From: Thiothrix subterranea
GTDB lineage: Bacteria > Pseudomonadota > Gammaproteobacteria > Thiotrichales > Thiotrichaceae
Assembly (NCBI RefSeq): GCF_030930995.1
Contig: NZ_CP133217.1
Span: forward strand, 3,214,001-3,278,000
Direction: 5' to 3'
DNA: 64,000 nucleotides
The translations under genes and the position numbers were made by a program. Shown in pieces: positions 1-10,623 of the stretch. The stretch's first letter is position 1; the number at the start of each line of letters is the position of its first letter. The notes under the pieces are model-generated. The model was not told where the DNA came from and did not search any database. It saw nothing but the letters and a program-made list of their open reading frames with translations.

Positions 1-310
1 CAATAACTTGAGTTCGTTTAGCAAAATCAGCATCTGATCGTCCGCTGGTAGTAACACAAATAATCATATCTTTTCCGTGCGGTAACTTTCGAATACTTGA
101 AATGATTTCTCCGTATTGTTCAGGGTCTGATGTATGCTTACTTTGTTCGTCCCTAGCATGAATGTGTACCATCTGTACGCCAAGTTTAATAGCTTGCTCT
201 ACATCCGAAAGGATTTCATTTGTCGTTAAAGGTATATAAGGGGTCATTTCTTTGGTTGGAATGACTCCAGTACAAGCCAGATTAATAATTAATTCAGATT
301 TTTCTTTCAT
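1..310 (-). CDS. BKACE-family beta-keto acid cleavage enzyme (DUF849), N-terminal part
   Basis: The first 103 residues of a protein whose C-terminus lies left of the window. The N-terminus has the family's opening strand NLACTGVIPTKEMTPYIPLT, followed by a helix and the strand VHIHARDE, whose two histidines correspond to the zinc-binding HxH of the 3-keto-5-aminohexanoate cleavage enzyme/BKACE family. Known members condense a beta-keto acid with acetyl-CoA, giving acetoacetate and an acyl-CoA. It is the last visible gene of the minus-strand acylation operon, 37 bp after the microprotein gene. I infer that it may supply or recycle the acyl group used there; the substrate cannot be read from the sequence. 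Confidence 0.82.
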   Translation of the reverse strand, partial: MKEKSELIINLACTGVIPTKEMTPYIPLTTNEILSDVEQAIKLGVQMVHIHARDEQSKHTSDPEQYGEIISSIRKLPHGKDMIICVTTSGRSDADFAKRTQVI

Positions 311-347: not shown

Positions 348-497
348 TTAACCTACATCAAGATAATTCATCGGATCAGGATTGCGACCAATTAACACAA
401 TGATGGCAATAAGCGTTAACGTATAAATACTTATTGCCATCAGTAATGCTAATGGCTTAGGCAGATATTTTTCAAGAAATGCGGTAAGAGGCGTCAT
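348..497 (-). CDS. 49-residue single-helix membrane microprotein coupled to MBOAT gene
   Basis: A short ORF whose ATG overlaps the MBOAT stop codon in an ATGA arrangement, which suggests translational coupling. The protein has a short polar N-terminus with two lysines (about 10-14), one hydrophobic helix (about 15-37) and a short tail, RNPDPMNYLDVG, carrying one tyrosine near the C-terminus. Size, topology, position beside an MBOAT gene and a C-terminal tyrosine recall DltX, the small protein of D-alanylation operons that works with DltB. There is no long sequence identity I can point to, so the assignment rests on context. It could also be an unrelated small membrane subunit. Confidence 0.7.
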   Translation of the reverse strand: MTPLTAFLEKYLPKPLALLMAISIYTLTLIAIIVLIGRNPDPMNYLDVG

Positions 498-1594
498 AAT
501 GGTAAACCTAAAATTTTAGCGATCACTGGGTTGGCAAGGGATAACCACCCTAATACATAAAAAGGCGACAGTTTGGCTAATTTGGTTGCATTTTTATGTA
601 TTTTTGGATTTTTATTGAGCATATTCTTCACTAACCTTGTTAAGATAATTCCAATAACTTGCCACAAAGCCCATAATACGTAATAAACTGATGACTCATG
701 CCATAGACCAATGACCAACATAGCAGCAATTAATCCGATGACTGGGGAGCGAGTTAATGCAGTAATAGGCTGAAACACATAGTCTCTGACCCATTGAGAA
801 AGCGTGATATGCCAGCGCAGCCAGAAATCAATGAGATCCTTTGCTAACCAAGGACGATTGAAATTTTCCTCAAGACGTAGCCCCATCATCAAAGACAAAC
901 CAAGCGCAATGCTGCTATAACCAGAAAATACGAAATATAACTCAATCCAATCTATGATTGAATAAATCCAGACCACAAAGAAATTTTGGGTTTGAAAAAT
1001 ACCTGCCGATATATTTGCTTCAACTTGATTAATTAACCAACCACCTAGAATAACTACTTGAGCAATGCCAAATAGTAAACGCTCCGCACCAGTGAAAAAT
1101 TCACTTGCATCCCATCGACGCCTTGCAATTTGTCGCTCAAAAATTTGAAACCGATTAATAGGCCCTGCCATTAAAGTAGGTAAGAAGAATTGATAGCGTA
1201 AATTATTAATTACACCAAGGCGAATAATTTTCCCCATCCACCAATCAAATAAAATATGTAAGTTGCGAAGTGTAAAATAAGCCCCACCAACCCATAAAAA
1301 TTGGGGAAGTTCTCGAAAAAATAGCAATGATATGGTTAACAAACTAGCGCCACATAACATCAAATAACTTTTACCACCCCAACGATCTCCTACAAACATA
1401 ATTATGGCAACGAGTAGGCTACTACTAATCAACCAAACGGCCGAAAGGGGTGATACACTAATTATACAAAGTAGGCTCCATACGGCTAAGATTTCCCATA
1501 TATTTCGTTTAATTAACCAAGAAAACAAAACAGCAAAAAGACTGCAAAAAATCAGGAAAAGTGCTTCTGGATTCATTTTTGTGTATTCCACCAA
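494..1594 (-). CDS. MBOAT-family membrane O-acyltransferase (DltB/AlgI-like)
   Basis: A 366-residue polytopic membrane protein. The central part carries the MBOAT signature region: FFLPTLMAGPINRF (about 136-149), FSGYSSIALGLSLMMG and FNRPWLAKDLIDFWLRWHITLS, then GLWHESSVYYVLWALWQ with the conserved active-site histidine in GLWHE. The family moves acyl groups from a carrier thioester across the membrane to cell-envelope polymers. Its 5' end overlaps the SGNH gene by 22 bp and its stop overlaps the microprotein start. The neighbours (adenylation-carrier fusion and SGNH protein) indicate a Dlt-like modification system rather than alginate acetylation, because no alginate genes are present. The envelope polymer acylated is unknown. 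Confidence 0.9.
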   Translation of the reverse strand: MVEYTKMNPEALFLIFCSLFAVLFSWLIKRNIWEILAVWSLLCIISVSPLSAVWLISSSLLVAIIMFVGDRWGGKSYLMLCGASLLTISLLFFRELPQFLWVGGAYFTLRNLHILFDWWMGKIIRLGVINNLRYQFFLPTLMAGPINRFQIFERQIARRRWDASEFFTGAERLLFGIAQVVILGGWLINQVEANISAGIFQTQNFFVVWIYSIIDWIELYFVFSGYSSIALGLSLMMGLRLEENFNRPWLAKDLIDFWLRWHITLSQWVRDYVFQPITALTRSPVIGLIAAMLVIGLWHESSVYYVLWALWQVIGIILTRLVKNMLNKNPKIHKNATKLAKLSPFYVLGWLSLANPVIAKILGLPL

Positions 1595-2210
1595 ACTTTC
1601 AATTCTTGCAAAAATCTTTGCCGCCCTGTGCTATTCATATGAGCACTATCCCAGAAGTTTTCATTTTCCCAAAAACTATCAGGCTGAAATAATGGAAGGT
1701 TAAGTTGTTTAGCTAAATTTTGATGAAATGACCCCAGATTTTTTGTTGCCACATCTCCTATAAACTGAGCACTCCACATTGAACGTGGTGGAGCAATTAA
1801 AATTACTTTGACACCTTTTCTTTTTAAAGAATTAATCAACTTATATAATTCTTCGGAATGCTTAGGCAGTCGTAAATACAAAGGGTATTTTTTTGCCTCG
1901 TTTAAATTAACGTGGAATGTATTAGCCAATCTACTAGCATCATCCGCTGTCATGACCTCATGCGAAGAACCGCGCCCTAGTAGCTTATTGAGTTTCAAAG
2001 CCAAGTCCTGACTTTTCTGTTTCATTAATAATGCGATGGATAATGAAGAAAATTGGTTTGAGTTATCTTTCTTATCTGCAAAATCAAAAACAAATGGATT
2101 TGTTTCAAAAAATACAAACTTCACATCTTGGTGCAAAAGTTTCTCCAGTAAACGCAATATTTGCTCTTCACTGATGCTGGAAACTGCCAAGCGCACATGA
2201 GGTCTCCCAT
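1573..2210 (-). pseudogene. SGNH hydrolase-like protein, C-terminal piece (split by tandem IS)
   Basis: The 3' part of a gene whose 5' part is at 5077-5301. Joining the halves across one copy of the 11-bp target duplication (2200-2210) gives an uninterrupted frame reading GRPH-VRLAVSS, so the ancestral protein was about 283 residues. This piece ends in WDSAHMNSTG, the D-x-x-H block of SGNH esterases, preceded by a strand VKVILIAPPRSMW. In operons of this kind the SGNH protein (DltD or AlgJ/X-like) works with the MBOAT protein outside the membrane. A downstream GTG at 2196 could start a truncated product, but it would lack the membrane anchor and the catalytic serine. Confidence 0.8.
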
Positions 2211-3639
2211 TATACGCGCCAACTTAAGCCCCTAACCCCTTGTTTCCTCTTGAAAACAAGATATGGCAACTCCATGTAGGATACTTTTACCGACCAAAGT
2301 GAAAGTCCCCATGAAGTTGCCACCATTATTAGATACCCGTTTTGTCCAATTCCTGCAAGTGCTGCCTGCCGATTATCACGAACAAGCGTATGCCTTCAAA
2401 GCCTTCGCCCGTCCCCGCAAGATCAAAAGCCCGCTGCAATTGCTCCAGTTAGTGCTGGCGTACTGCGGCTTGGACTTGTCGCTACGCAGTTGCGCCGGGG
2501 AGGTTGCCCAGAGGCAGGGCTATCTCAGTGATACAGCCGTAAAAAAAGACTGGAGGCTTGTGTTCCGTGGGTAAAATCCCTGCTGGCAGGCGTATTTGGG
2601 CTAAGCGAGATTGTCGATAGCGGCAAACTACGTTTCATCGCCATTGATGGCTCGACCGTGCAAGAACCGGCAGCCACTGCCACGACGTACCGCCTGCATA
2701 TCGCCATTGATTTGATCAACCTCAGCCTGCATCAAGTGGAAGTCACCACCGATAAAGAAGGCGAAAACCTCGACCATTACACGCTGGCAGCAGGCGATGT
2801 GGTGCTGATTGACCGGGGTTATAACCAACCCAAAACGCTTGTCCCTTTTATCGACCGGGGCGGTGACGTGGTATTACGCTACAACGCCCATAGCATGAAT
2901 CTGTATGAGGATGACGAAGGGGATGATACCGGACGCCTAGTCAAAATCGACTGGTACACGCGCTTACGTAAGCTGGGTAAACGCCCCAGTTGTGTGCCGG
3001 TTTGGTTATGTCATGGCAACAAACGCATCCAGGGCTACCTTCACGCGATCCCCTTACCCGAAGAAAAAGCCGCACAAGCGCGGCGCAAAGCCAAACAACG
3101 CGCCAAAGACAAGGGACGCAACCCCAGCACGGAAGCCCTTTGCCTGAGCGAATGGGTACTGATTTTCACGTCATTACCGCCTGAAGTCCTGTGTACCACC
3201 ACCGCATCCGCACTCTACCGTGTCCGCTGGCAGGTTGAATTGGTGATCAAACGTCTCAAAAGTTTGCTGAATGTCGATGAGCTACGGGCGCACAAAGGCT
3301 CAAAACTGGCTGAACTGTATCTACACGGCAAATTATTGTACGCCGCCGTGCTGGAAAAGATGACGCAAAGTCGCTTTGCCAATGCCAAACGTAAACTCGA
3401 TAACCCCCGCCGACTCACCGATTGGCGACTTTGGAAAACCGTCGCGGATGACCTCAACGCGGGCATCAAAGCCTGTTTCCCTGTTGATGCCCGCTTTGAG
3501 GATGACAACATCAAGAGTTTGAGCGAACGCCCCAGAAAGCGGACGTTGCAATGTTTGCCTAGCCCCATTCTTGCTCTGTTGAACCAATGCCGAGAAATGG
3601 CGTTGAGCCGTGTTTAATCAAGGGATAGAGGCTTAAGTT
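2211..3639 (+). mobile_element. IS4-family insertion sequence, copy A (left half of tandem dimer)
   Basis: The left end reads TATACGCGCCAACTTAAG; other copies begin CATACGCGCC. The right end stops at GGCTTAAGTT and lacks the terminal GGCGCGTATG, abutting the left end of copy B directly. The dimer A+B is flanked by one 11-bp duplication, AGGTCTCCCAT (2200-2210 and 5077-5087), so the pair behaves as one insertion. Full-length copies in this window are about 1,437-1,441 bp. The copy interrupts the SGNH gene of the acylation operon in the opposite orientation. Confidence 0.92.
2263..3617 (+). CDS. IS4-family transposase, copy A, two frames joined by -1 frameshift
   Basis: The first frame (103 residues) ends at 2574 and the second (open from before 2658) ends at 3617. 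A run of seven A (about 2541-2547, read GTA AAA AAA GAC) lets a -1 slip continue as KKRLEACVPWVKSLL, giving about 451 residues. The second part carries the DDE_Tnp_1 catalytic core: IAIDGST (first D), LIDRGYNQ (second D) and YRVRWQVELVIKRLK, an exact Y-2-R-3-E-6-K signature of the IS4 family. The same A7 and the same two frames recur in the other copies, which favours programmed frameshifting over decay. Start choice: ATG at 2263, but a start further in cannot be excluded. Confidence 0.85.
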
Positions 3640-5076
3640 ATACGCGCCAACTTAAGCCCCTAACCCTTGTTTCCTCTCGAAACAAGATATGGCAACTCCA
3701 TGTAGGATACTTTTACCGACCAAAGTGAAAGTTCCCATGAAGTTGCCACCATTATTAGATACCCGTTTTGCCCAATTCCTGCAAGTGTTACCTGCCGATT
3801 ATCACGAACAAGCGTATGCCTTCAAAGCCTTCGCCCGTCCCCGCAAGATCAAAAGCCCGCTGCAATTGCTCCAGTTAGTGCTGGCGTACTGCGGCTTGGA
3901 CTTGTCGCTACGCAGTTGCGCCGGGGAGGTTGCCCAGAGGCAGGGCTATCTCAGTGATACAGCCGTAAAAAAAGACTGGAGGCTTGTGTTCCGTGGGTAA
4001 AATCCCTGCTGGCAGGCGTATTTGGGCTAAGCGAGATTGTCGATAGCGGCAAACTCCGCTTCATTGTCATTGACGGTTCGACCGTGCAAGAACCGGGTGC
4101 GACAGCCACGACGTACCGCCTGCATATCGCCATTGATTTGATCAACCTCAGCCTGCATCAAGTGGAAGTCACTACCGATAAAGAAGGCGAAAACCTCGAC
4201 CATTACACGCTGGCAGCAGGCGATGTGGTGCTGATTGACCGGGGTTATAACCAACCCAAAACGCTTGTCCCTTTCATCGACCGAGGCGGTGATGTGGTAT
4301 TACGCTACAACGTCCACAGCATGAACCTGTATGAAGATGGCGAAGGAGATGATGCCGGACGCCTAGTCAAAATCGACTGGTACACGCGCTTACGCAAGCT
4401 GGGCAAACGCCCCAGTTGTGTGCCGGTTTGGTTATGTCATGGCAACAAACGCATCCAGGGCTACCTTCACGCGATCCCCTTACCCGAAGAAAAAGCCGCA
4501 CAAGCGCGGCGCAAAGCCAAACAACGCGCCAAAGACAAGGGACGCAACCCCAGCACGGAAGCCCTTTGCCTGAGCGAATGGGTACTGATTTTCACGTCAT
4601 TACCGCCTGAAGTCCTGTGTACCACCACCGCATCCGCACTCTACCGTGTCCGCTGGCAGGTTGAATTGGTGATCAAACGTCTCAAAAGTTTGCTGAATGT
4701 CGATGAGCTACGGGCGCACAAAGGCTCAAAACTGGCTGAACTGTATCTACACGGCAAATTATTGTACGCCGCCGTGCTGGAAAAGATGACGCAAAGTCGC
4801 TTTGCCAATGCCAAACGTAAACTCGATAACCCCCGCCGACTCACCGATTGGCGACTTTGGAAAACCGTCGCGGATGACCTCAACGCGGGCATCAAAGCCT
4901 GTTTCCCTGTTGATGCCCGCTTTGAGGATGACAACATCAAGAGTTTGAGCGAACGCCCCAGAAAGCGGACGTTGCAATGTTTGCCTAGCCCCATTCTTGC
5001 TCTGTTGAACCAATGCCGAGAAATGGCGTTGAGCCGTGTTTAATCAAGGGGATAGGGGCTTAAGTTGGCGCGTATG
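3640..5076 (+). mobile_element. IS4-family insertion sequence, copy B (right half of tandem dimer)
   Basis: Begins ATACGCGCCAACTTAAGCCC directly after copy A and ends GGGGCTTAAGTTGGCGCGTATG, the complete right inverted repeat. Length is about 1,437 bp. The target duplication AGGTCTCCCAT follows at 5077-5087. It differs from copy A by scattered substitutions, for example around 4080-4100, so the dimer was not made by a very recent exact tandem duplication. Confidence 0.92.
3689..5043 (+). CDS. IS4-family transposase, copy B, two frames joined by -1 frameshift
   Basis: Same architecture as copy A: a 103-residue first frame (3689-4000) and a second frame to 5043, linked by the A7 run near 3967-3973. 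The catalytic aspartates in VIDGST and LIDRGYNQ and the Y-R-E-K signature are intact. Together with copy A this is one of only two copies in the window with no further disabling mutation, so A and B are the likely sources of active transposase. Confidence 0.86.
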
Positions 5077-5301
5077 AGGTCTCCCATCTCCCAATATTCC
5101 CCCATTGTCTCCAGAACCTAGTCCCGGTACCGCGTAACGCATCAGAGAAGATCCAATCACAACGATCGGCGCTTTTGGTATCGCTTGCTCTGTTGGGTCA
5201 ATAATATTATTGGGTAACGGATACAAAGCCACCACCAATATAAAAATACCGGATAAAGCAATAGAAACAAGCCAGATTGCTAACAAACTAGATATTCTCA
5301 T
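5077..5301 (-). pseudogene. SGNH hydrolase-like protein, N-terminal piece (split by tandem IS)
   Basis: The 5' part of the gene continued at 1573-2210. It encodes a membrane anchor (about residues 5-27, LLAIWLVSIALSGIFILVVA) followed by IVVIGSSLMRYAVP, where GSS is block I of the SGNH fold with the catalytic serine. The start ATG overlaps the stop of the adenylation-carrier gene in an ATGA arrangement. Reading on into the IS adds a short foreign tail ending at 5044. Because the anchor and the serine are separated from the D-x-x-H block, no functional SGNH protein is expected unless the IS pair excises precisely. Confidence 0.8.
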
Positions 5302-7109
5302 TTCAACAAATCTTTGACCGTTGTTACCAATTCACCAAGGTTACGAATACTTGCAGCTTTTGCCACCGGAATTCTGATCGAGAAATGACTTTCCATAGCA
5401 ATAATAAGCGCAATTTGGGAAAAACTATCCCAGCTTCGAACAGAAGCAGGGCTTGAATCTGGCTGAAGTAACTGAGGGTCTATGTGTAAGACCTGTGCTG
5501 TAATCTGATAAACCTCTCCAGAAACATCACGAGAATTTCTTTCTTGTGTGTATTCTTTTTTACGACTAAGTATCATCAAAAGCTCTTCTCTCAGCTCTTT
5601 TAATTTAGGTTTACCCGCATCCCCTCGCGGTATAGAAGCCAAAGAAATAATTCTTTTAGGTACTTTAAGTGCTTCAAGGTTAGAACGCGCATATTCTAAT
5701 AAAGTATCTTCATCAGTTCTCTCGTCTGACAATACAACCGCCGTCACAGGAACTTCATCAAAGTTAGGGTCTGGCATTGAAACAGTAACTGCCTCAATTA
5801 CTGATGGGTGTGTCAATAGGACTTCATCAATTTCCTCAGGGCGGATCAAAAAACCACCTGACATAATAATTGTTTTCAAGCGACCTAATATTTTATAAGA
5901 ACCATCCGAACAAGATTGCACCAGATCCCCTGTTCTCATCCAGCCATCTTGTGTGAACGTTTCTGTTGTACGCTTAGAATTTTTCCAATAACCTAAGAAA
6001 ATATTATCACCGTGTAGTTGCAACTCACCGATTTCAGAATCCACATCGTCGGTATTTCTAATGCGTGCTTCACAATCGACCGGCTTTCCAATGCTACCAA
6101 AACCACCCATTTCTGAATGAAAATCTCCAGAATAAAGAGCAGAGGTAACAGTTTCTGTTAGACCGTATTGATTGGAAATGCTTTTACCAAATCGATTTTG
6201 TAAACGCCCCCACAGCTCTTGCTCAAGTTTTGCAGCGACTGAGATTAAATGAAGGCATTCACTGGAGTCAAAGTAATCATCATGATTCGCATATTGATCG
6301 ATAAATGACCATATCGTGGGTGCGGTAATAAAATGAGTAGCTTTTTCTTGGCGCACTCGATTTAACCAGTTCTCAAGGTTACTGATTTTAAATCCACCTG
6401 ATCGAATCAAGGTTGCTGCATTAGCCATAGCCAGTAAAATTCCTTGTACTAGGCCGTCAGCATGAGCTAGAGCCATATCATTAAATAGTCGTGCATTTGA
6501 ATTACAACCAAATAATCGCGATATGGTTTGCAAATTAGCAATAATATTTTTTCGGGAAATCATTACTCCACTGGGTGCTTGTGTAGTGCCTGATGTAAAC
6601 AATATATAAGCTAAATCATCATTTACTTCTGGCAAATGAGGCTCTCGTATCGCAGTCGGCAAATCCAAACCACAATGATGCATTGCGCTACGTTTATGGC
6701 TAAAGCTGAATAATTTTTTGCGGGGATAACTATTAGAATCGTGAATTACAATACGAGCAGGGATTTGTTTTATCCAATCTTCGTCTAAGCGACTATCATC
6801 AATGATAACAAGAGCGGGTTCTGTAGAGTTGACAATTGAAGCAACGCGCCGATGAGGAGTATCAGGTGTTAACATAATAGGGACTACACCATCTAATAGA
6901 GAGGCGATAAACCCGACAATAGCAGCCCCTTCATTGTGAGTAAGAATGATAACTCTACTAGACGGCAAAATATTATATTCATCAAATAGCGTTACTAAGC
7001 GATTAATAAGCTCAATAAGATCACCATAATTTAAACGATACTCAAGCATTGTCAAAAAATCGTTATTTTTGAATTTTTTAAGGTTTCTCCAAATAGAGTG
7101 AAAATCCAT
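5298..7109 (-). CDS. Acyl-adenylating enzyme fused to C-terminal carrier protein (DltA+DltC-like)
   Basis: A 603-residue two-domain protein. Residues 1-515 are an ANL-superfamily adenylation domain: YILFTSGTTQAPSGVM (phosphate-binding loop), NQYGLTETV, GWMRTGDL, LGRLKTIIMSGGFLIRPEEI, and a final GDAGKPKLKELR with the catalytic lysine. Residues 530-603 form an acyl-carrier domain with SVRSWDSFSQIAL; the serine in DSF is the expected phosphopantetheine site, although the usual DSL is DSF here. It should activate a carboxylic acid with ATP and load it on its own carrier, the cytoplasmic half of a Dlt-like system. The substrate cannot be predicted. It overlaps the SGNH gene by 4 bp and follows the acyltransferase gene by 6 bp. 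Confidence 0.9.
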   Translation of the reverse strand: MDFHSIWRNLKKFKNNDFLTMLEYRLNYGDLIELINRLVTLFDEYNILPSSRVIILTHNEGAAIVGFIASLLDGVVPIMLTPDTPHRRVASIVNSTEPALVIIDDSRLDEDWIKQIPARIVIHDSNSYPRKKLFSFSHKRSAMHHCGLDLPTAIREPHLPEVNDDLAYILFTSGTTQAPSGVMISRKNIIANLQTISRLFGCNSNARLFNDMALAHADGLVQGILLAMANAATLIRSGGFKISNLENWLNRVRQEKATHFITAPTIWSFIDQYANHDDYFDSSECLHLISVAAKLEQELWGRLQNRFGKSISNQYGLTETVTSALYSGDFHSEMGGFGSIGKPVDCEARIRNTDDVDSEIGELQLHGDNIFLGYWKNSKRTTETFTQDGWMRTGDLVQSCSDGSYKILGRLKTIIMSGGFLIRPEEIDEVLLTHPSVIEAVTVSMPDPNFDEVPVTAVVLSDERTDEDTLLEYARSNLEALKVPKRIISLASIPRGDAGKPKLKELREELLMILSRKKEYTQERNSRDVSGEVYQITAQVLHIDPQLLQPDSSPASVRSWDSFSQIALIIAMESHFSIRIPVAKAASIRNLGELVTTVKDLLK

Positions 7110-7115
7110 CGAGTT

Positions 7116-7781
7116 CTACTCCTCATCTTCTACATACAGACTTGATTTTGCGGGATTATAAGAACGCTCTTGAGCAGGATTCCCTACTACTAACACCCCA
7201 TCAGAAACATCCTTACGAACTACTGAACCAGCGGCTATCAGTGCATTTTCACCAATACGAATATTAGGGAGTATGGTTGCCCCTGCCCCAATCATAGTGC
7301 CAGTACCTACACGTATGTTCCCAGCCAGTGTTGCTCCGGGTCCAATACTTACATAATCACCTAATACAGTGTGGTGTCCCAAAGATACTGCGCGATTAAC
7401 CAATACACCATTACCGATCATGGAGACTGCCCCGACGACAACGCCTGCATTAATAAAGCTTCCCTCACCGATACGTACAGACCGTGCCAGTATCGCGCTT
7501 GGATCAATTAATGGGTCATCCAAAACAAAACCTAACTGTTGTGCCTGAGCAATCAACGCTGCTCGGCGGGATGGAGTAAAAGCACAAGCAATGAATCTTT
7601 TACCTATGATAGAAGGAGGGAGTTCATTAATATTAACAACGCGGGATTGATCAACTAATCGAGGTGAACCATTCACGCTGACTGCCATTTCTATCTTAAG
7701 CCCTAGTCGATGACAGGTTTCCTCATACTCTACAACCAGCGGAGATCTCACGCCAAACAAAATCATTTTTGACAAACCCAC
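7116..7781 (-). CDS. PglD/NeuD-family hexapeptide acyltransferase
   Basis: A 221-residue protein. Residues 1-80 form a small Rossmann-like domain (MILFGVRSPLVVEYEE, then PSIIGKRFIACAF), and residues 90-205 form a left-handed beta-helix of hexapeptide repeats (RIGEGSFINAGVVVGAVSMI, GNIRVGTGTMIGAGATIL). The conserved LGHHTVLGD supplies the catalytic histidine of this family. Relatives acetylate amino or hydroxyl groups of sugars using acetyl-CoA. It is the first gene of the acylation operon, 22 bp after uvrA. The first start is GTG at 7781; an ATG at 7766 (MILFG) fits the family's usual N-terminus and may be the real start, since neither has a clear ribosome site. Confidence 0.86.
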   Translation of the reverse strand: MGLSKMILFGVRSPLVVEYEETCHRLGLKIEMAVSVNGSPRLVDQSRVVNINELPPSIIGKRFIACAFTPSRRAALIAQAQQLGFVLDDPLIDPSAILARSVRIGEGSFINAGVVVGAVSMIGNGVLVNRAVSLGHHTVLGDYVSIGPGATLAGNIRVGTGTMIGAGATILPNIRIGENALIAAGSVVRKDVSDGVLVVGNPAQERSYNPAKSSLYVEDEE

Positions 7782-7803: not shown

Positions 7804-10623
7804 TCATAACATCCGCTTCAAAAATTGCCCAGTAAACGACCCTTCCGCCTCCGCCACCTGCTCCGGCGTACCAATCGCAATAATATGCCCCCCACGACTC
7901 CCACCCTCCGGCCCCAAATCCACCACCCAATCCGCCGTCTTGATCACATCCAGATTATGCTCAATCACCACCACCGTATTGCCACCATCACGCAAGCGAT
8001 GCAGCACTTGCAGCAATTGGTCAACGTCGTGGAAATGCAGCCCCGTAGTCGGCTCATCCAAAATATAAATCGTCTTGCCCGTGCCACGTTTGGACAGCTC
8101 TTTCGCCAACTTGACGCGCTGCGCTTCGCCGCCGGAAAGCGTAGTCGCATTTTGCCCCAGCGTGATGTACGACAGCCCCACGTCCATCAGCGTTTGCAGC
8201 TTGGTGTTGATCGACGGCACGGCGGCGAAAAATTCGCAGGCATCTTCCACCGTCATCGCCAGCACTTCGCTGATGTTCTTGCCCTTGTAGCGGATGTCGA
8301 GGGTTTCACGGTTGTAACGCTTGCCTTCGCACACTTCGCAGGTCACGTACACGTCTGGCAAAAAGTGCATTTCGACCTTGATCAAACCGTCGCCGGAACA
8401 CGCTTCGCAGCGTCCGCCTTTGACGTTGAACGAAAACCGTCCGGGCAAATAGCCGCGTGAACGCGCTTCTTGCGTCGCCGCAAACATATCCCGAATCGCG
8501 GTAAACACGCCTGTGTAGGTGGCGGGGTTGGAACGCGGAGTACGCCCAATCGGGCTTTGGTCGATGTCGATAATTTTGTCGATTTGCTCCACGCCCAGCA
8601 CTTCGCGCACTGGGGCAACTTCCACACTGCTGTCGTGCAGATGCCGCGCCAGAAATGGGTATAATGTGCGGTTGATCAGCGTCGATTTGCCCGACCCCGA
8701 CACGCCCGTGATGCAGGTCAGCAGCCCCAGCGGAATTTCCAGCGTCACGTCATTGAGATTATTGCCGGTCGCGCCGATCAGTTTGATGGTGCGTTCGGGG
8801 TTGAACGGGGTGCGTTGGGCGGGCATGGTGATTTTGCGCCGCCCGGACATGAATTGCCCCGTCACCGAATCCGGCGTGGCAAACACTTCTTCCGGTGTGC
8901 CTTGCGCAATAATGTAACCGCCATGCACGCCCGCGCCGGGGCCAATATCCAGCACATGGTCGGCGGAACGGATCGCGTCTTCGTCATGCTCGACCACGAT
9001 CACGGTATTGCCAAGGTCACGCAGGCGGAACAGCGTTTTCAGCAAGCGGGCGTTGTCGCGCTGGTGCAAACCGATGGATGGCTCATCCAGCACGTACATC
9101 ACCCCGACTAGCCCCGCGCCAATCTGCGAGGCAAGACGGATGCGTTGCGCTTCGCCGCCGGAGAGCGTTTCCGCGCTGCGGCTCAGGGTCAGATAATCCA
9201 GCCCGACATTGACCAGAAATTCCAAGCGCAAGGCAATTTCACGCAAAATCTTATCGGCGATTTGCCCCTGTGTTCCCGACAAATTCAGGCTACGGAAAAA
9301 CGCATGGCTTTCGCCAATCGGCAAATGCGTGATCGCAGGCAAATTGCGGCCCGCGATAAACACGTTCCGCGCCTGTTCGTTCAAGCGCGTACCGCCGCAA
9401 TCCGGGCAAGCGCGGCTGGCAAGGTATTTCGCCAACTCTTCGCGCACCGCACTCGAATCGGTTTCGCGGTAACGGCGTTTGAGATTGTTCAATACGCCTT
9501 CAAAGGTGTGCGAACGGGTGTAAGTTTGCCCTTTTTGCCCGACATAGGTGAATTCCACCTCCTCCAAACCGCTGCCGTGCAAGATCAGTTTATGGACAGA
9601 CGCGGGCAATTCATCCCACGGCTGCTCCACGTCAAAGTTGAAATGTTCGGCAAGCGAGGTGAGCATCTGGAAGTAGTAGGCGTTGCGCCGATCCCAGCCG
9701 CGCACCGCACCACCCGCTAGGCTCATCGACGGATTTGCCACCACCCGTTGCGGGTCGAAAAACTGTTCCACGCCCAAACCGTCGCAGGTTTGGCACGCGC
9801 CAGCGGGTGCGTTGAACGAGAACAAGCGCGGTTCGAGTTCGGTCAGCGACCAGCCGCAATGCGGGCAGGCGTAGTTGGCGGAAAAAATCATGTCTTCGCC
9901 GTCACCGTCCATCCACGCCACTGTTGCCAGCCCGTTGGCGAGTTTCAGCGCGGTTTCAAACGATTCGGCGAGGCGCAATTGCATGTCGTCGCGCACTTTG
10001 AAACGGTCAATCACCACTTCGATGGTGTGTTTCTTGCGCAATTCCAGCGTCGGCGGCACGTCCAGTTCGTAGACCACGCCGTTCACCCGCGCCCGCAAAT
10101 AGCCTTGCGCCCGCAACGAATCAAACAGTTGCACATGTTCACCCTTGCGTTCGCGCACCACCGGGGCAAGCAACATCAGCTTGCTGCCTTCGGGCAAACT
10201 CAACACCTGATCGACCATCTGGCTGACGGTTTGCACTTGTAAGTCAACGTGATGCGTCGGGCAACGCGGTACACCCGCCCGCGCATACAGCAGGCGCAGG
10301 TAGTCGTAAATCTCGGTGATCGTGCCGACGGTGGAACGCGGGTTGTGCGAGGTGGTTTTCTGCTCAATGGAAATCGCCGGGGAAAGCCCTTCGATGTGGT
10401 CAATGTCCGGCTTTTCCATCATCGACAAGAACTGGCGGGCATAGGCGGACAGCGACTCGACGTAACGCCGCTGCCCTTCCGCAAAGATCGTGTCGAACGC
10501 CAGCGACGACTTGCCCGAACCCGACAAGCCCGTGATCACGATCAGCTTGTCACGCGGCAGGTCAAGGTCGATGTTTTTCAGGTTATGGGTGCGTGCGCCG
10601 CGAATGCGGATGAATTTTTCCAT
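7804..10623 (-). CDS. uvrA: Excinuclease ABC subunit A
   Basis: At 939 residues this is full length for UvrA, the damage-recognition ATPase of nucleotide excision repair. It has two ABC modules: Walker [21 protein letters not shown] near residue 31 and [15 protein letters not shown] near 640, with ABC signatures [12 protein letters not shown] and [12 protein letters not shown]. Zinc-finger cysteine pairs are CPHC and CQTC in the first half and CEAC and CEVC in the second. The gene is intact and GC-rich. It stands alone upstream of the acylation operon on the same strand, so read-through into that operon is possible. Confidence 0.98.

Follow-up and report, generated by a model that had tools for sequence, protein, structure and literature searches.

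The window, that is, the whole 64,000-nucleotide stretch of the Thiothrix subterranea genome analysed here (contig NZ_CP133217.1, positions 3,214,001 to 3,278,000), begins with a minus-strand operon in the order NeuD-like hexapeptide acetyltransferase, AMP-ligase-carrier, SGNH protein, MBOAT, microprotein and BKACE (beta-keto acid cleavage enzyme). Its features, in window coordinates, are:

2..310, minus: start of the BKACE gene (full 282 aa at L002 14462-15310)
348..497, minus: DltX-like microprotein, 49 aa, its ATG overlapping the MBOAT stop codon as ATGA
354..371, minus: putative shuttle tail M43-N-Y45-L-D47-V48, a relaxed FxYxxF (Tyr45 codon 363-365)
390..446, minus: membrane helix of the microprotein, the hydrophobic 19-mer at residues 18-36 by hydropathy (helix 14-38 in the AF2 model)
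494..1594, minus: short DltB-like MBOAT, 366 aa from TTG 1594; the likelier start is ATG 1576, with an ATGA overlap with the SGNH gene
698-700, minus: codon of MBOAT H299 in GLWH
809-811, minus: codon of the conserved MBOAT H262
1573..2210, minus: 3' fragment of the SGNH transferase gene (D-S-A-H motif)
2211..5073, no strand assigned: two tandem IS copies of ~1.43 kb breaking the SGNH gene, with a 14-bp target duplication, ATGAGGTCTCCCAT
5074..5301, minus: 5' fragment of the SGNH gene (signal anchor, catalytic G-S-S)
5298..7109, minus: AMP-forming ligase with a C-terminal carrier (PP-binding) domain by Pfam, ATGA overlap with the SGNH gene
7116..7781, minus: acetyltransferase of left-handed beta-helix type (NeuD/PglB-like), present in three of the four diverged orthologous loci described below

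Because ATGA overlaps join the MBOAT and microprotein genes and the ligase and SGNH genes, and with an MBOAT start at ATG 1576 also the SGNH and MBOAT genes, these genes look translationally coupled. The operon sits between a full uvrA gene (window 7804-10623) and a partial 3' copy of uvrA past the BKACE gene (399 aa; L002 13204-14403). This arrangement is common to the window genome and its sister (G006), and suggests that the operon arrived with an insertion or duplication.

The window genome contains one MBOAT gene. Its product matched the Pfam MBOAT family (1.4e-19), TIGR04091 (7e-41) and DltB (6bug, 1.4e-26), DltB being the best match; since the TIGR04091 score of 140.7 bits lies under the 375-bit equivalog cut-off, the protein is DltB-like and not DltB. 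It has the conserved His pair, including the GLWHE motif that an earlier reading of the DNA (hereafter the sequence-only reading) had pointed out and that we located at G296-L-W-H299-E, and it ends without a tail 67 residues after GLWH. Modelled as a single chain by AF2 with 15 sequences, the MBOAT gave a poor structure (pLDDT 62.6), whose lone significant Foldseek match was DltB (8jem, E 4e-4, low TM). The locus presents the setting of DltB-type MBOAT, carrier-loading ligase, carrier and SGNH protein. A ligase search at 1e-60 across 369 genomes of the class returned the window only.

A Pfam search of the SGNH protein gave no match, and the assignment is based on its GSS and DSAH motifs, the gene position and a weak GDSL-lipase match of one orthologue (G420). 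The gene is intact in the sister genome (283 aa, both motifs). In the window it is split at about codon 76 by the two IS copies, which are arranged head-to-tail and 98% alike; about 20 copies or pieces of this IS occur in the genome. As the last enzyme is broken, the acylation pathway is probably off in the window strain. In the sister, BKACE itself is cut by a different IS (L034 11822-12502).

The microprotein and its orthologues

The microprotein (MTPLTAFLEKYLPKPLALLMAISIYTLTLIAIIVLIGRNPDPMNYLDVG) agrees with the sequence-only reading in its 49 residues, in its start within the MBOAT stop codon and in its single helix, seen both by hydropathy and in the AF2 model (core pLDDT about 94). The tyrosine that had been called C-terminal stands near the end, as residue 45 of 49, which makes the wording slightly loose. 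The tail, GRNPDPMNYLDVG, ends in MNYLDVG and deviates from the published acyl-shuttle motif, FxYxxF (PMC12148441), which would form the C-terminal hexapeptide: both Phe are replaced (by M and V), and the Tyr and the hydrophobic character at -2 and +3 are kept. With an E-value limit of 10, the window microprotein matched no Pfam family, DltX (PF12459) included; the positive control, L. crispatus DltX, gave 7e-16. As defined by Pfam or by FxYxxF, the microprotein would accordingly be placed outside the DltX family.

Two K+R precede the helix and one follows it, a small margin in the direction N-in/C-out. In all 12 aligned microproteins K+R before the helix equal or exceed those after it, by a small margin in several. 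This bias to the N-terminal side predicts the Tyr to lie outside; the wrong-side tyrosine that the sequence-only reading had raised as an objection is not predicted.

An MBOAT search found three diverged orthologous loci (41-45% MBOAT identity), and the orthologue group comprises only four diverged members, with the window and G006 as near-copies:

G420 (L065), MBOAT 41% identity: ligase-carrier, SGNH, MBOAT, 49-aa microprotein ending GFIYWDN, radical SAM gene
Sulfitobacter pontiacus plasmid NZ_CP049347 (L097), MBOAT 44.7%: acetyltransferase, ligase-carrier, SGNH, MBOAT, 53-aa ORF, ketopantoate-reductase-like gene
G860 (L116), MBOAT 45% to the Sulfitobacter MBOAT: acetyltransferase, ligase-carrier, SGNH, MBOAT, 51-aa ORF ending EVIRYIDPRRG, reductase-like gene

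The intact gene set is present in these loci and in the sister (L034). The Sulfitobacter ORF has the ATGA overlap and ends in DQIIYIDLQEAQ; it is missing from the gene table, which is itself incomplete. Aligned, the tails read MNYLDV (window), IIYIDL (Sulfitobacter), IRYIDP (G860) and FIYWDN (G420), giving the group signature Phi-x-Y-x-D, and M1, P13, L16, Y25, Y45 and D47 are invariant in the five aligned microproteins. The motif is followed by further residues in four of these microproteins (window, sister and two orthologues), in contrast to the exactly C-terminal FxYxxF found elsewhere. The sister microprotein keeps start, stop and tail, with three synonymous and two conservative differences. 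The conservation of the tail in homologues, on which the sequence-only reading had staked its proposal, was thus found: Tyr and Asp(+2) are invariant among the orthologues, and the other Gram-negative microproteins beside short MBOATs end in FxYxxF or Y..F. This conservation at the sequence level confirms the microprotein gene as real and more than a chance ORF. Since the last gene varies between loci (BKACE, reductase, radical SAM), the comparison further suggests that different loci may make different acyl groups.

Split and fused tails among related MBOATs

Exact C-terminal FxYxxF was found in 81 of 100 related MBOAT ORFs, the remaining ones being cut by contig ends or frameshifts, or short. 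The intact short MBOATs examined lacked a tail of their own, and a tail-bearing small ORF was present in the locus of every one of them (15/15, window and G006 near-copies included). After the His of GxWH, short MBOATs have 55-83 residues versus 113-193 in fused ones. None of 39 small membrane ORFs near the 81 fused MBOATs carried the tail, and in a background set of 660 membrane-helix ORF ends from all loci of the analysis, the frequency away from MBOAT loci was about 1% for the relaxed motif and zero for the strict one. A scan of genome contigs for relatives yielded fused ones only, and a sequence search of the PDB with DltX matched no entry.

The strict FxYxxF does occur in Gram-negative microproteins other than that of the window. 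The tails of the split loci and of two Gram-positive DltX controls are:

G471: FRYAGF
G274: FRYQNF
G418: FLYGRF
G433: FIYVSF
G472: APYVGF
G1092: FAYQGF
G929: FKYQGF
G753: FEYRVF
Gram-positive DltX controls (L099, L100): FIYNEF

G753 was considered as a tail-less exception and rejected, as the microprotein ending FEYRVF adjoins its SGNH gene. In control L099 (1777-1926, Limosilactobacillus oris plasmid CP014788) the dltX ORF ending FIYNEF, upstream of dltA, is absent from the annotation.

The split state is associated with carrier loading: an AMP ligase of at least 500 aa lay in the stretch read of 12 of 13 split loci versus 0 of 35 fused loci (Fisher 2e-10, kinship of loci ignored; G929 was left out for too little flank). 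The split locus G433 has neither ligase nor carrier in the stretch read. A 14th split locus, G753, has FkbH (TIGR01686, 1.6e-87) and a carrier, which suggests that glyceryl-type carrier loading by FkbH feeds a split MBOAT shuttle; its locus (L125 2076-7992) comprises the FEYRVF microprotein, two SGNH-like genes, FkbH, the carrier and the short MBOAT. A carrier-domain gene, confirmed by profile in L017, lies 4 bp upstream of the fused FLYWQF MBOATs (L017-L032), which probably form a fused yet carrier-fed class. A strict rule that carrier-fed means split was rejected on account of this clade and of G433. Two G471-type split loci (L066 10970-13163, L110 2112-3365) contain a PLP decarboxylase-like gene between carrier and ligase, joined in L066 by a sulfotransferase-like gene (both named by eye).

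In a quick maximum-likelihood tree of 41 MBOATs without their tails, 27 of 28 fused proteins formed one clade (98), and the split MBOATs fell outside it as several lineages, with the window group supported (99). The rooting, like the order and number of events, is uncertain owing to long branches (G472, G418 and the atypical fused protein L062).

Proposed acyl-shuttle cycle and alternative explanations

Comparison with homologues gives the microprotein the quite probable role of a detached acyl-shuttle subunit in an envelope-acylation pathway of the MBOAT-SGNH type, and it likely works like DltX. Around the observed ORF, its coupling, its conserved tail, the complementarity of tail-less MBOAT and tail-bearing microprotein and the adjacent carrier-loading gene, we infer the following topology and chemical steps. 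The AMP-ligase would load an acyl group onto its own carrier domain, from which the short DltB-like MBOAT would take it at the cytoplasmic face. With its helix N-in and C-out, the microprotein would reach with its tail into the MBOAT mouth on the extracytoplasmic side, and the MBOAT would use His299 to move the acyl group to Tyr45. The catalytic Ser of SGNH would then receive the group from acyl-Tyr, and the SGNH protein would place it on a surface polymer. The role of the tail Tyr as acyl carrier is drawn from homology to DltX and PatA; acyl-Tyr has been shown for PatA, and the DltX device has been described (PMC12148441).

Alternatively, the microprotein could have a purely structural or assembly role as a bridge between MBOAT and SGNH protein, with the Tyr docking in unacylated form and the acyl group passing directly from MBOAT to SGNH or via a lipid. 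The loss of the canonical aromatic positions in the window lineage fits this explanation, as does the conservation of the helix residues P13, L16 and Y25, which equals that of the tail. However, the Tyr is the sole tail residue common to all 12 aligned microproteins, DltX included, and also to the fused tails, and its equivalent is the acyl carrier in DltX and PatA (PMC12148441), so that we consider a purely structural role unlikely. The system might also be decaying in this lineage, the SGNH gene being broken, MBOAT and microprotein being relics and the relaxed motif a product of decay. The two IS copies in the SGNH gene and the sister's own IS in BKACE would agree with this, but MBOAT and microprotein are 99% and 97% identical to those of the sister, with no stops, and relaxed Y-x-D tails are present in intact loci of other bacterial groups, which makes the relaxed form older than the IS insertion. 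Decay may be true of the window strain, yet it does not explain the motif, and as a general account it is highly improbable. That 348-497 is a chance ORF without product, as its mere 49 codons and at first single sequence allowed, is refuted by the place, length, overlap and tail shared by four diverged loci and retains a negligible probability.

Comparison with known systems

The preferred reading, a detached acyl shuttle, relates the microprotein most closely to DltX (dlt operon, PF12459, Firmicutes), in which only one helix Leu and one Tyr of the outside segment are fully conserved (Kamar et al., PMC5541007). Both have ~45-50 aa, one helix and a tail Tyr with hydrophobic residues at -2 and +3, the charges of the window microprotein point by a small margin to the N-in/C-out orientation of DltX, and both are accompanied by a short MBOAT, a carrier-loading ligase and an SGNH protein. 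In contrast to DltX, the window microprotein lacks a Pfam DltX match and has Phi-x-Y-x-D instead of FxYxxF, its gene follows the MBOAT gene rather than preceding dltA, ligase and carrier are one protein, loci of its type also contain an acetyltransferase gene together with one for BKACE, a reductase or a radical-SAM protein, and the host is Gram-negative. The DltX-like form seen by the sequence-only reading is supported by the conserved tail Tyr, though with a relaxed motif (MNYLDV).

The PatA/AlgI-type MBOATs, with their fused C-terminal FxYxxF tail, share the MBOAT family, the tail position relative to the membrane and the SGNH partner. They differ in that the window tail is a separate gene and that the window MBOAT has about 100 residues fewer behind GxWH and receives its acyl group from a ligase-carrier in place of the acetyl-CoA used by PatA. 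In the Gram-negative Dickeya, the dlt-like genes dltBAC and dltD/pbpG likewise bring together a DltB-like MBOAT, a ligase and a carrier; their gene content differs, and the description consulted does not mention a microprotein (PMC3544676).

That a C-terminal acyl relay is a general MBOAT device, as the sequence-only reading supposed, had already been published, usually as a tail fused to the MBOAT (PMC12148441); the acyl-Tyr device itself is known from Dlt and PatA. What appears to be new is the split shuttle in Gram-negative ligase-carrier pathways. The non-Dlt MBOAT/SGNH pathways were described in 2025 as having neither a carrier protein nor a DltX-like microprotein (PMC12148441); contrary to this, split loci in several Gram-negative groups have both. 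We see an evenly balanced case for the broader view that detached shuttle microproteins are a widespread, mostly overlooked subunit of Gram-negative carrier-fed MBOAT-SGNH pathways in several MBOAT lineages, that the PatA/AlgI tail arose by a single gene fusion, and that the tail sequence, here Phi-x-Y-x-D, is adapted to the acyl group or to the SGNH protein with which it works. The data yield a genomic rule, by which a short MBOAT without FxYxxF points to a tail-bearing small ORF nearby, and this rule exposes small genes that are easily overlooked. The natural variants of the tail allow asking which residues besides the Tyr count, and the split loci suggest a possible origin of the fused PatA/AlgI form.
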